Shown here piece by piece: positions 3,292-25,868 of a DNA stretch of 32,350 nucleotides. The stretch spans positions 1 through 32,350 of the forward strand of contig JAPYUH010000021.1 in NCBI GenBank assembly GCA_029936195.1, read 5' to 3'. Under the pieces are notes generated by a model, which saw nothing but the letters and a program-made list of their open reading frames with translations, was not told the origin of the DNA and did not search any database. Made by a program: the position numbers and the translations under genes. This stretch comes from Alphaproteobacteria bacterium (GTDB lineage Bacteria > Pseudomonadota > Alphaproteobacteria > GCA-2731375). Numbering within the stretch: position 1 is the stretch's first letter; each line of letters starts with the position of its first letter.

Positions 3292-3321
3292 AATACAATT
3301 TACGAAGATTAGGAATGCTTG

Positions 3322-4500
3322 ATGATTGATTTTGCCTTACCCGATGAACTGGTCGAATTGCGGGACCGGGTCACCGCCTTTATCCGCGACGAGATCATGC
3401 CCTTCGAAGCGGACCAGCGGCAGGAATACCATGGTCCCACCGAAGACCTGCGCCATGAACTGGTGGCCAAGGCCAAGACGGCCGGTTTGCTCTCTCCCCA
3501 CGGCCCCACGGAATTCGGCGGTCTGGGCCTGAACCATGTGGGCATGGCCGTTGTATTCGAGGCGGCGGGTTATTCCACCCTCGGTCCCCTGGCCCTGAAC
3601 ATTCAGGCACCTGACGAGGGCAACACAAACCTGCTGGCCCAGGTCGCCTCGCAAGAGCAAAAGGAGCGCTGGCTGGCCCCCTTGGTCGCCGGCAAGGTGC
3701 GTTCCGTCTTTGCCATGACGGAACCTGACGGCGGTGCCGGCTCCGACCCTTCGCTGATGCGCACGGCGGCGCGGCCCGATGGGGACGACTATGTCATCAA
3801 TGGCCGCAAATGGCTGATTACCGGCATGCCCGGCGCATCGTTCCAGATCCTCATGGCCAAAACCCTAGACCAAGACGGTAATGATCTGGGCGCGACGATG
3901 TTCATGATGGACAATGACACACCGGGGATCGAAATTGTCCGCGTGCTCAACACCATGGACAGCAATTCGCCCGGCGGCCATGCGGAGGTGGCCTACAACG
4001 ATGTCCGTGTCCCGGCCCACCAGATCCTGGGCGAGGCGGGCAAGGGTTTTCGCTATGCCCAGGTGCGCCTGACGCCGGCGCGCATGACCCATTGCATGCG
4101 CTGGCTGGGCGCCGCCGTCCGGGCCCATGACATCGCCGTCGACTACGCCAAGCACCGCCAGGCCTTTGGCAAGGTGCTGGGCGAACATGAAGGCGTGGGC
4201 TTCATGCTGGCGGAAAACCAGATGGACCTGCATTTCTGCCGCCTGGCCATCTGGCAGGCCTGCTGGCTTTTGGATAATGGCGAGCAGGCCCGCGACGAAA
4301 GCTCCATGGCCAAGGTGCGTTGTTCGGAAGCCCTCTCGAACGTGGTTGACCGCTCGCTGCAAATTCTGGGCGGCCGGGGCATTACGGACGATACGGTAGT
4401 GGAGCGGATCTATCGCGATATCCGGGCCTTCCGTATTTACGACGGCCCCTCGGAAGTGCACCGCTGGGCCCTGGCCCGCAATATCATGAAGCGGAATTGA
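3322..4500 (+). CDS. Acyl-CoA dehydrogenase family protein
   Basis: FAMTEPDGGAGSDPSLMRTAA, INGRKWLITG, LGGRGITDDTVVERIYRDIRAFRIYDGPSEVHR. Confidence 0.92.
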   Translation: MIDFALPDELVELRDRVTAFIRDEIMPFEADQRQEYHGPTEDLRHELVAKAKTAGLLSPHGPTEFGGLGLNHVGMAVVFEAAGYSTLGPLALNIQAPDEGNTNLLAQVASQEQKERWLAPLVAGKVRSVFAMTEPDGGAGSDPSLMRTAARPDGDDYVINGRKWLITGMPGASFQILMAKTLDQDGNDLGATMFMMDNDTPGIEIVRVLNTMDSNSPGGHAEVAYNDVRVPAHQILGEAGKGFRYAQVRLTPARMTHCMRWLGAAVRAHDIAVDYAKHRQAFGKVLGEHEGVGFMLAENQMDLHFCRLAIWQACWLLDNGEQARDESSMAKVRCSEALSNVVDRSLQILGGRGITDDTVVERIYRDIRAFRIYDGPSEVHRWALARNIMKRN

Positions 4501-4501
4501 T

Positions 4502-5584
4502 ATGTTGAGCGAGATCAAGGTCGGCGGCGAACCATTGCCCATCCGGGAAAGTTTGGTGCGGGAAATGGAGGTGGCCTGGAAGCGCCTGGCCGGACCCGGT
4601 ACCTGGTGGACGGGGGCGGAGCGTTTGGCCATCGCGGCGGAGGCACGCCATGCCACGAATTGTAGGCTGTGCCAGCGCCGCAAGGAGGCACTGTCGCCCT
4701 ACACCCACGATGGCGAACACGATGCCATGTGCGAACTTGCGCCGGCGGCGGTCGAGGCGATCCACCGTCTGGTTACCGATGCGGGACGGATCACCGAAAA
4801 ATGGGTGCGCTCGCTGGATTTGGATGAAACCAAGTATGTGGAAATTATCGGCGTTCTTGCGGTCCTGACCGGCCTGGATACCCTGCACGGCGCCCTGGGC
4901 CTGCCCTTGACGCAATTGCCCGCCGCGATGCCGGGGGAGCCGGTGCGCCAGAAACCCCAAGGCGCGAAACGTAATCTGGCCTGGGTGGAGACCGTGGCGC
5001 CCGAAGATGTCGGGGCCGGAGAGCCAAACCCCTATCCCCTACATGGTGACAAGAACATCCATCGCGGAATCAGCCTGGTGCCCCAGGAGGTGATTAATTT
5101 CTTTGATCTGGATGTCGAACTGTACATGAAGGATGACGAAATCCGGGATTTCGATACGGAATACCGGGCCATTTCCCATGCCCAGATCGAACTGATCGCG
5201 GGGCGAACCTCGGCCCTTGCCGGGTGTTTTTACTGAACCACCTCCCATTCAGTTCTGCTCCGTGCGAGCGGCGAACATTTAGGACAGGACTACGATCTCA
5301 ACGCGGTGATGTCGGACCAGGGCCTGGTGGATAGTATTCCCAACGGCAAGGTTCTGATGGATCTGGTCGAGGCAGTTTTTGCTAACGCGGATTTGGCGGA
5401 GGCCCGCCAAGCGGTGCGCGACGATCTAGGCGATGCCGCCTTTGTCGATGCCTGCGGCACCATCGCCTCGTTCAGCGCCGTGGTGAAGATCGCCGATGGC
5501 GCCGGCATCCCGTTGGAGGATTACAAGGAAGAAGTTAGCCGTGAAATTCGCCAAGAATTGTCCATCAATGAGTTCGTGACCTAA
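4502..5584 (+). CDS. Two-domain AhpD-like (alkylhydroperoxidase/carboxymuconolactone decarboxylase-like) protein, candidate CxxU selenoprotein with in-frame TGA at 5234-5236 (Sec245)
   Basis: ORFs 4502-5236 and 5306-5584 are in the same frame. Readthrough gives ...AQIELIAGRTSALAGCFY[U]TTSHSVLLRASGEHLGQDYDLNAVMSDQGLVDSIPNGKVLMDLVEAVF..., where the TGA occupies the second Cys of the AhpD CxxCxxxH motif. The N-terminal half carries EARHATNCRLCQRRKEALSP. Confidence 0.8.
5252..5276 (+). promoter_or_regulatory. Putative bacterial SECIS element (hairpin downstream of in-frame UGA)
   Basis: GUUC-U-GCUC-[CGUGC]-GAGC-GGC-GAAC: two 4-bp Watson-Crick helices around an asymmetric internal loop, with a 5-nt apical loop that has G at position 2 and U at position 3. 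The loop starts 24 nt after the UGA. Confidence 0.65.
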
Positions 5585-5991
5585 GGCTGAAACGGAAACC
5601 GGTCACCCGAACAGCGGTGGATGACGGCGTATTCGACGCATTCCCCGCGCAGGCGGTAATTATTCTCTGACCCAGGCGCAGACGACAGGTCGAGAAAAGC
5701 CTGGTGGCTGGGATACCAGGCGGCCAGAATTTCATCCAGTTTTTGCTCTCCCACCGCCTGTCCGTGGACCGCGTGGCGCCACAGGATCCCGGGCCCGACC
5801 ACGGGCAGAAATTTTTCCAAACCGGTGATGCAATCATGATAAACGCCGCCGCCGGGAAATCCAGTGCCCGGCTTGTAGCGGTTCAAGTTCAACATGAGCA
5901 CGGGGCCGTCGTTGCCGCTGTCCGCGACAGCCTGGATAATCGCCGCCTCGTCTTCATTCCGTGTCAGTTTCGTGGGCAGCATGTCTGGCAT
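5581..5991 (-). CDS. DUF1330-like (NIPSNAP/ABM-fold) hypothetical protein
   Basis: GPVLMLNLNRYKPG...LEKFLPVVGPGILWRHAVHGQAVGEQKLDEILAAWYPSHQAFLDL...NYRLRGECVEYAVIHRC; convergent, with stop overlapping the AhpD-like gene's TAA. Start is ambiguous (an upstream start is also possible). Confidence 0.7.
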   Translation of the reverse strand: MPDMLPTKLTRNEDEAAIIQAVADSGNDGPVLMLNLNRYKPGTGFPGGGVYHDCITGLEKFLPVVGPGILWRHAVHGQAVGEQKLDEILAAWYPSHQAFLDLSSAPGSENNYRLRGECVEYAVIHRCSGDRFPFQP

Positions 5992-6073: not shown

Positions 6074-7699
6074 ATGGAGTGGTACGAAAAGCGCCTGATC
6101 GGTGATCTGGCGGACGCGGCGGCGGCAAGGTTCGGCGCGCGGGAAGGCTTGGTTTTCGAAAATTCGCGTTATAGCTTCGCCGAAGTTGCGGCGGAGGTTG
6201 ACCGCGCCGCCAAGGCATTGATGGCGCAAGGCGTCGAACGGGGCGATCACGTGGCGCTGTGGTTGAACAACAGCGCCGATTGGATTTTTATTAGTTTTGC
6301 CCTGGCCAAGGTTGGCGCGGTACAGGTGCCCATCAACACCCGCTTCCGCACCGCCGATCTGGAATATGTGGTGGGCCAGTCTGACAGCACCATGTTGATC
6401 ACCCATGACCATTCCGGCCCCATCGATTATCTGGACATGGTGCGCCAAGTCATCACCCTGCCGCAATCAGACGACAACGTTGCGGACGACCGGTTCCCCG
6501 AACTGCGCCGGGTGATCATTCTGGGCAGTGGCGAATATGTGGGCACGGCATCCTGGAAAACCAGCCTAAGCGCGGGCGAGACGATTACGGATGCCGCCCT
6601 GGCGGGCCGGGCCGCCTCGGTCGATCCCGATGATGCTTTTCTGATCATGTATACCTCCGGCACCACCGGCTTCCCCAAGGGCGCCATGCACAGCCACAAA
6701 TTGATCCGCAACAACGAGGAGCGGGCCAATCGCATGGCCTATACGGTCAATGACGTGATCCTGAACTACCTGCCCTTGTTCCATGCCTTCTCCTATTCCG
6801 AGGCGGCGGTGATGTCGTTTTTGAGCGGCGCCAAACAGATCATTACAGAAACCTTTGATGCCGGGGAAAGCCTGGATTTGATCGAGGCCGAGGGGGTCAG
6901 CATCGTGCACGGCTTCGAAGCGCATATGAAAGGCCTGACGGAGGCGCAGGAGGCCAAGGCGCGCAATCTATCAACCCTGCGCACGGGCATCTTTGCCGCC
7001 GGCATGCACAGCGCCACGCCGGTAATCCGCCGTGGTGCCAGGGCCCTGGCGCCGCTGAAGAATTTGTCGGGCTTCGGCATGACCGAAGTATGGCTGGGCG
7101 TGGCCCTGAATTCCCTGGACGACAGTGAAGAGCGGCGCTGCGAAACCTCCGGCTATCCTTGCTTAGGCTATGAAATCCGGGTTGTTGATCCCGATACCGG
7201 GGCCGATCAAGCGGTGGGCGTGCCCGGCGAATTACTGGTCCGCGGCTACAGCCTGATGCTGGGATATTACAAAAAGCCCGAGGAGACGGCTGCGAGTTAC
7301 GACGCCGACGGCTGGTTCCACACCGGTGACACGGCGGAGTGGCTCGACGGCGGCTACATGCGGTTCCTGGGCCGCTACAAGGACATGCTCAAGGTCGGCG
7401 GCGAGAATGTCGACCCCATGGAGACCGAGGGGTTCTTGCTGGAACACCCAGCAGTCCACCAGATCGCCATCGTCGGCTATCCGGACGAAAAGCTGTCGGA
7501 AGTCCCCGTTGCCTTTGTCGAGCGGGCGCCGGGCACCAATATTTCCGCCCAGGCGGTCATTGATCTTTGCCGGGGCAAATTCGCCTCCTTCAAAATTCCC
7601 CGGCATGTGTTTTTCATCGACGTGTTTCCCATGACCGCTTCCGGCAAGATCCGCAAGGTAGAGCTGCGCGAGGAGGCCTTGCGCCTGCTGGCGGAGTGA
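6074..7699 (+). CDS. Acyl-CoA synthetase / AMP-dependent CoA ligase
   Basis: MYTSGTTGFPKGAMHSH P-loop, GFGMTEVW, DGWFHTGDTAEW, GRYKDMLKVGGENVDPMETE, C-terminal TASGKIRKVELR. Confidence 0.93.
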   Translation: MEWYEKRLIGDLADAAAARFGAREGLVFENSRYSFAEVAAEVDRAAKALMAQGVERGDHVALWLNNSADWIFISFALAKVGAVQVPINTRFRTADLEYVVGQSDSTMLITHDHSGPIDYLDMVRQVITLPQSDDNVADDRFPELRRVIILGSGEYVGTASWKTSLSAGETITDAALAGRAASVDPDDAFLIMYTSGTTGFPKGAMHSHKLIRNNEERANRMAYTVNDVILNYLPLFHAFSYSEAAVMSFLSGAKQIITETFDAGESLDLIEAEGVSIVHGFEAHMKGLTEAQEAKARNLSTLRTGIFAAGMHSATPVIRRGARALAPLKNLSGFGMTEVWLGVALNSLDDSEERRCETSGYPCLGYEIRVVDPDTGADQAVGVPGELLVRGYSLMLGYYKKPEETAASYDADGWFHTGDTAEWLDGGYMRFLGRYKDMLKVGGENVDPMETEGFLLEHPAVHQIAIVGYPDEKLSEVPVAFVERAPGTNISAQAVIDLCRGKFASFKIPRHVFFIDVFPMTASGKIRKVELREEALRLLAE

Positions 7700-24111: not shown

Positions 24112-25868
24112 TCAGGCCGGCAATCCGGCCTTTAGCAAGGATTGGCGGTGGTGGTCCCTATCGGCCTCGTGCATGTAGTGCAGGGTGCCGAGGTGCGCTT
24201 CAATCGTGAAACCCGGGTCCTGCCTCTGCACGGCCTCCCGGTGCCTTTCCGCGCGGTTGTCATCACCTAGGTAGGCGTAGGCGGCGGCGAGGGCGGCATT
24301 TATACCGACATCGGGTTGATTGACATGGCGGAATGCCTCAACAGCTTCGTCATAGCGGCGGGCCACGAAATAGGCGCGTCCCAGATGGCCCCAGAACCGC
24401 TCCGGGTGATAGGGGTTTAGGCGCATGGCTTTCAATATCCACTCGATGCCCTCTTCGGCCTGTCCCATCCAGGTCAGATTTTCACCTTGCTGGACGACAA
24501 TCAGGTCGTCATTGGGGTTCAGTTCCATGGCCCGTTTTTGATGATATTCAGCCTGATCGAAATCCCCGTGGAAAACTTGCTAGGCGGCCAGTATTCGGTG
24601 CACGTCGCTGTCGTTGTCGTCCAGGGCCTGGGCCGCGCTCAACTCTTCCTGCATGGCCTTCAAGGCGGCAGCCGGATCTTCGGCGGCGCTAAGGGCAATG
24701 CTTTGGCCTAAAGCACAAGCCTTCCAGGCGTGCCATGGGCATATTGGGGATCCAGTTCGATAGCCCGGTCCATCATTTCCTGGGCCCGAATATTGTCATC
24801 CGGCGTGCTGCGGTGGTGCAGACGCTTGCCGGCTAGGACGCATTCATAGGCCGCCATGCTTTCCGTCGGCTTGCGTTCCGCCCGCTCTTGGGCCGCCGCT
24901 TCCACCCGGCCGGGGAGGATTGAAACAATGGCCTGGGTCAATTCATCCTGGATTTCGAAGATATCTTCCAAATCCCGGTCATTGCGTTCGGCCCAGATGC
25001 GCTGGTCGGTCTCCGCGTCAATAAGCTGAACGGTCAGGCGGATGCGATTGCCGGCTTTGCGCACGCTGCCTTCAACCACGTATTGCACGTCCAATTCCTT
25101 GGCAACATCGGGAATATTTATGTCCTTGCCCTTGAAAGTGAAGGCGGAGGTCCGCGAAATCACCAATAAATCATTGAAGCGGGATAGTTCGGTCAGGATG
25201 TCTTCGGTTATGCCGTCCGTGAAGAAGTCCTGCTCCTCATCACGGCTCATATTGACGAAGGGCAGAACGGCGATTGACGGCTTTTTGTGACCGGCGCCGG
25301 GGGCGGCGGTTTTTTTGGCCCTTGCCCTTGGTGCCGCGCCATCGGCCTGCCAGCCCCAAACCCGAATGGGACGGGCAATATTCTTGACCTCGCGCTCGCC
25401 CAGGTCGCTGAATGATTGTTCAAGTTTGTCACGAACCTGATTGTAGGCATCATCTGAAATGCAGACTCCGTTCGGTTCGGCAAGCATCTGCAGACGGGCG
25501 GCGATATTGACGCCGTCGCCGTAAATATCGCCCTCTTCGACGATGATATCGCCCAGATTTACCCCGACGCGGAAGATCAGGCGTTCGATCTCCGGCACCT
25601 CCAGATTGCGTTTATGGACGGCCTCTTGAACCTCGATGGCATTGCGCACCGCCTCGACGATGGAGGGGTGTTAGATTAACAAGCCATCGCCCATGGTCTC
25701 GACCACCGTACCGTGGCGCAGCTTCAGGCCCGGGTCGATGATTTCAGTACGAATGGCTTTCAATTCGGCCGGGGTGGCCTCTTCATTGCGCTCCATCAAA
25801 CGGCTATAGCCAACCACGTCCGCCGATAAAATGGCGGCCAGTTTGCGCACTGTGGTTACGTTGGCCAT
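24112..25868 (-). pseudogene. Class III adenylate/guanylate cyclase with C-terminal TPR repeats, broken by two stops and one frameshift
   Basis: Pieces MANVTTVRKLAAILSADVVGYSRLMERNEEAT...VVETMGDGLLI / HPSIVEAVRNAIEVQ...GVNLGDIIVEEGDIYGDGVNIAARLQ...DRAIELDPQYAH / HAWKACALGQSIALSAAEDPAAALKAMQEEL...HRILAA / QVFHGDFDQAEYHQKRAMELNPNDDL... form one collinear protein. It is interrupted by TAA (25671-25673), a -1 nt shift (about 24733-24737) and TAG (24580-24582). Confidence 0.85.

Follow-up and report, generated by a model that had tools for sequence, protein, structure and literature searches.

The open reading frame at 4502-5584 on the forward strand of the window (our term for the whole 32,350-nucleotide stretch of alphaproteobacterial DNA that was analysed) almost certainly encodes a single 360-residue selenoprotein of the NCBIfam family NF041238, in which an in-frame UGA is decoded as selenocysteine (Sec). 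Standard annotation cuts this marine-type alphaproteobacterial gene in two, losing the catalytic residue. For a case made from sequence alone, the evidence that UGA is recoded to Sec is about as strong as it can be: it includes the complete selenocysteine machinery of the genome, a nearly frozen stem-loop past the TGA, and relatives that keep the same stop codon in the same place.

Results

One gene with one in-frame TGA

The frame runs from an ATG at 4502 to a TAA at 5582-5584, with a TGA at 5234-5236 as its sole internal stop. When read through, it gives a product of 360 residues with Sec as residue 245, placed in the motif C242-F-Y-U245-T-T-S-H249 (GCFYUTTSH), so that the TGA takes the second position of CxxU(x3)H. 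The original prediction had joined two open reading frames into one gene around this motif, and its coordinates and motif are both borne out by the one frame and one TGA. The features of the gene are as follows.

4502-5584, forward strand: AhpD-related selenoprotein gene (NF041238), 360 residues, predicted Sec at 245 (continuous frame; 428.8 bits, residues 14-359 on model positions 1-356 of 357)
5225-5227, forward strand: codon of Cys242, the presumed resolving Cys of CxxU (invariant in 54/54 aligned relatives)
5234-5236, forward strand: TGA predicted to be read as selenocysteine, U245 (same column in 54/54 aligned relatives; Cys there in PDB 3c1l)
5246-5248, forward strand: codon of His249, four residues past Sec (invariant in 54/54)

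A member of a catalogued selenoprotein family

The score of the read-through protein against NF041238, named 'alkylhydroperoxidase-related (seleno)protein', is far above the curated cutoff of 175 bits, and the motif of that family, C-x-Y/F-U-T with a TGA-encoded U, is present as GCFYUTTSH. A 2026 review equates NF041238 with 'AhpD-related protein (hypothetical protein 1, Sargasso Sea metagenome)' and gives its motif as CxxU (PMC13188914). Hypothetical protein 1 was described in the 2005 Sargasso Sea selenoproteome from four sequences with CxxU and a predicted SECIS element, and Cys versions of it are on record in the same work (PMC1088965). Given this match and this equation, the family is already known, and the window protein is an additional member of a described and catalogued selenoprotein family; the earlier guess that such a long, two-motif version might be poorly described is corrected accordingly. 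The window protein shares with NF041238 (AhpD_rel_CFYUT) the full-length match, the CxxU motif and a SECIS element past the TGA, and shows no defining difference from it, the window copy belonging to a subgroup whose genes lie in synteny next to an acyl-CoA dehydrogenase. Possibly new are certain details: an N-terminal AhpD-like unit that has diverged and has a plain CxxC, the lack of Cys versions in our sample, and the linkage of a subgroup to an acyl-CoA catabolic cluster. A literature search for the motif string 'CFYUT' returned no match.

Other AhpD-like proteins are more distant. The AhpD-like selenoproteins of COG2128 and TIGR01926 (AhpD-like 1 and 2 of the GOS survey, PMC2398784) have the CxxU core in common with the window protein, but the latter is about twice as long and carries an extra N-terminal CxxC unit; TIGR01926 matches residues 223-327 at 29.3 bits, under the model cutoff of 81.8. 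Solved structures of Cys-containing AhpD-like proteins, such as 3c1l (Mlr4105) and 6k40, match residues 223-338 by profile, although these proteins are about 190 residues long, are without the extra N-terminal unit, and have Cys instead of Sec. The profile alignment pairs U245 with the second Cys of 3c1l, and H249 with its His. The read-through protein scored 19.5 bits against the Pfam CMD model (PF02627, gathering score 23) and 19.0 bits against TIGR00778 (cutoff 27.8), reaching neither threshold.

Selenocysteine machinery and distribution

All four of the genes selA, selB, selC (tRNA-Sec) and selD, for which the original prediction had proposed a check, are present in the genome of the window (4.59 Mb in 540 contigs, 94.7% complete). 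The tRNA-Sec gene, with anticodon TCA (UCA), was found on contig C273 at 68.2 bits, and selA (578 bits) lies adjacent to selB (424 bits) on C297. The selD gene on C265 (L062, around 939) contains an in-frame TGA, which falls at the active-site position in the context GGGUGCKI, and SelD of this genome is likely a selenoprotein too. A second selD match (L016, on contig C456 of this genome, G000) is a 756-residue open frame without a TGA, possibly a fusion of the Ndh-SelD type. An AhpD-like gene on C354 was considered as a further selenoprotein and rejected, its TGA being upstream of the gene.

Three NF041238 paralogues, each with one TGA, are encoded in the genome of the window. The other two (L025 on contig C114 and L027 on C483) have about 38-47% identity with the window copy and stand in different neighbourhoods. 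Across the class, 27 of 385 genomes carry the family, with 50 members above the cutoff, every one of them having one TGA and no other stop; the order survey, whose 15 genomes overlap the class sample, yielded 30 members in 14 genomes, again with exactly one TGA each (30/30). The assorted nonsense codons and frameshifts that would mark decay are thus absent from these relatives, which have the TGA only. No Cys version was found among the 50 class and 30 order members of these overlapping samples. In a phylum-wide sample of 399 genomes, members occurred only in the window's own genome, so that this sample is silent on Cys versions elsewhere, and a plasmid collection contained no relative of the window protein.

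Within the class sample, selA is present in all 27 family-bearing genomes versus 56 of 385 overall (Fisher p = 3e-26, a value that overstates independence because the genomes are related). One congener in the order survey, G359, has selA and no NF041238 member, and therefore either the family is dispensable or the member was missed in an incomplete assembly. At loci in four other genomes (L085, L086, L087 and L088), a member lies 0.1-2.4 kb from a tRNA-Sec gene, with selA and selB also nearby in L085 and L087, and a selD-type fusion in L086 and L088. This arrangement looks like a selenocysteine gene cassette, its genes having been named from recognisable N-termini rather than by family search, except for selA and the tRNAs.

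A frozen predicted stem-loop past the TGA

5255-5271, forward strand: predicted bacterial SECIS stem-loop, 6-bp stem with the five-base apical loop CGTGC (RNAalifold and codon-level conservation)

The stem pairs 5255-5260 with 5266-5271, which places the element 19-35 bases past the TGA. A small apical loop with a G is described as a feature of bacterial SECIS elements (PMC1088965), and CGTGC is a loop of this kind. The segment TGCTCCGTGCGAGC is nearly fixed despite coding for ordinary residues: Leu at +8 is CTC in 34/34 sequences, Arg at +9 is CGT in 32/34, and Ala at +10 is GCG in 22/22, with codon entropy near zero at these three positions versus mostly 1-2.4 bits in the other Leu, Arg and Ala columns of the gene. 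Standard pairs fill 94.3% of the pair cells of the predicted stem, versus 34-59% in slid controls. Compensatory changes in the stem are few, and the support for the SECIS element therefore comes mainly from frozen sequence.

These results bear on the possibility that the TGA is read as some other residue, such as Trp, or is passed by unspecific read-through. A conserved downstream protein would be expected from read-through alone, but this explanation is very improbable in view of the complete Sec machinery, the strict co-occurrence with selA, the frozen SECIS element, the linkage to tRNA-Sec genes, and the Cys found at the Sec position in AhpD relatives. TGA also serves as an ordinary stop elsewhere here, for example at the end of the acyl-CoA dehydrogenase gene (4498-4500).

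Conservation on both sides of the TGA

Identity with the six nearest relatives is 72-82% before the TGA and 64-71% after it, so that the similarity among homologues runs on past residue 245, as the original prediction had suggested should be checked. With the SECIS codons excluded, dN/dS is 0.09-0.17 before the TGA and 0.16-0.29 after it, and Sec, the Cys three residues before it and the His four residues after it are invariant among the 54 aligned sequences. The run of similarity past the TGA is far beyond chance, because each of the 50 class members has a single TGA and is otherwise free of stops.

A pseudogene, in which the TGA is a genuine nonsense mutation followed by the decaying remains of the frame, would fit the two open reading frames of 244 and 92 residues that a standard gene caller would give; it is nonetheless extremely improbable, since the TGA stands in the same column in all relatives with no other stop, and the low dN/dS past it speaks against decay. 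A sequencing or assembly error converting TGC or TGT to TGA might be suspected in so fragmented an assembly, but its probability is negligible, as independent assemblies of different species share the TGA at the same position. All three explanations were rejected, and the CxxU selenoprotein reading put forward in the original prediction is supported by the presence of the sel genes, by relatives that keep the TGA only, and by conservation beyond it.

A probable second AhpD-like unit

4661-4672, forward strand: N-terminal CxxC (C54, C57; Cys in 51/54), within what is probably a diverged copy of the C-terminal AhpD unit

When the profiles of residues 10-165 and 195-360 were compared with hhalign, the CxxC of C54 and C57 aligned on C242-U245 with a score of 28.5; none of 200 column shuffles scored above 20.6, and the reversed control gave 17.8. 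The hhalign probability, however, was only 27%. An internal duplication of an AhpD-like unit is likely from this comparison, if not proven. An AlphaFold2 model built from six sequences is mostly helical, with a mean pLDDT of only 41.9; because this prediction is poor, we infer the fold from sequence profiles.

Gene neighbourhood

3319-4500, forward strand: acyl-CoA dehydrogenase, ending one base upstream of the selenoprotein gene (Pfam)
5581-5988, reverse strand: small conserved protein (neighbours 70-74% identical in L020 and L022)
6074-7699, forward strand: AMP-binding acyl-CoA ligase, downstream (Pfam PF00501, PF13193)

The acyl-CoA dehydrogenase and the selenoprotein gene are probably in the same operon. 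An orthologue of the dehydrogenase, 87-91% identical, stands beside the selenoprotein at three related loci (L020, L021 and L022), which have in common, on its upstream side, genes for the dehydrogenase, an enoyl-CoA hydratase and a GST-like protein. At two further loci (L023 and L024) the surroundings differ, making the acyl-CoA linkage a feature of a subgroup. The small protein at 5581-5988 has no Pfam or NCBIfam match. Elsewhere in the window, an adenylate cyclase/TPR-like protein on the reverse strand (24112-25649) is found in two open reading frames, 24708-25649 and 24112-24528, perhaps split by a frameshift.

Discussion

In the mechanism that we propose, the UGA at 5234 would be decoded as Sec by SelB and tRNA-Sec, steered by the stem-loop at 5255-5271. 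The product would probably consist of two helical, AhpD-like units that have diverged: an N-terminal unit with an ordinary CxxC, and a C-terminal unit with the CxxU(x3)H active site. In AhpD, it is the second Cys of CxxC(x3)H that reacts with peroxide. By analogy, the selenolate of U245 would attack a peroxide or disulfide with the help of His249, and a selenenylsulfide would then form with C242, to be reset by a thiol partner. We lean towards such peroxide- or disulfide-directed CxxU chemistry for the window protein.

The conserved placement of the gene in a cluster of acyl-CoA dehydrogenase, ligase and hydratase genes hints at a redox or peroxide-protecting role tied to a CoA-ester degradation pathway, a suggestion that we make tentatively. 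It is likewise only a speculative possibility that the family as a whole is an obligate or nearly obligate selenoenzyme, with a CxxC relay unit fused to a CxxU catalytic AhpD unit, and that the subgroup of the window acts in specific CoA-ester degradation and not in general peroxide defence.

The mended gene is a well-supported extra member, and one of three copies in its genome, of a named selenoprotein family. Leads on what this family does come from the probable internal duplication, from the lack of any Cys version in the class sample, and from the catabolic neighbourhood.
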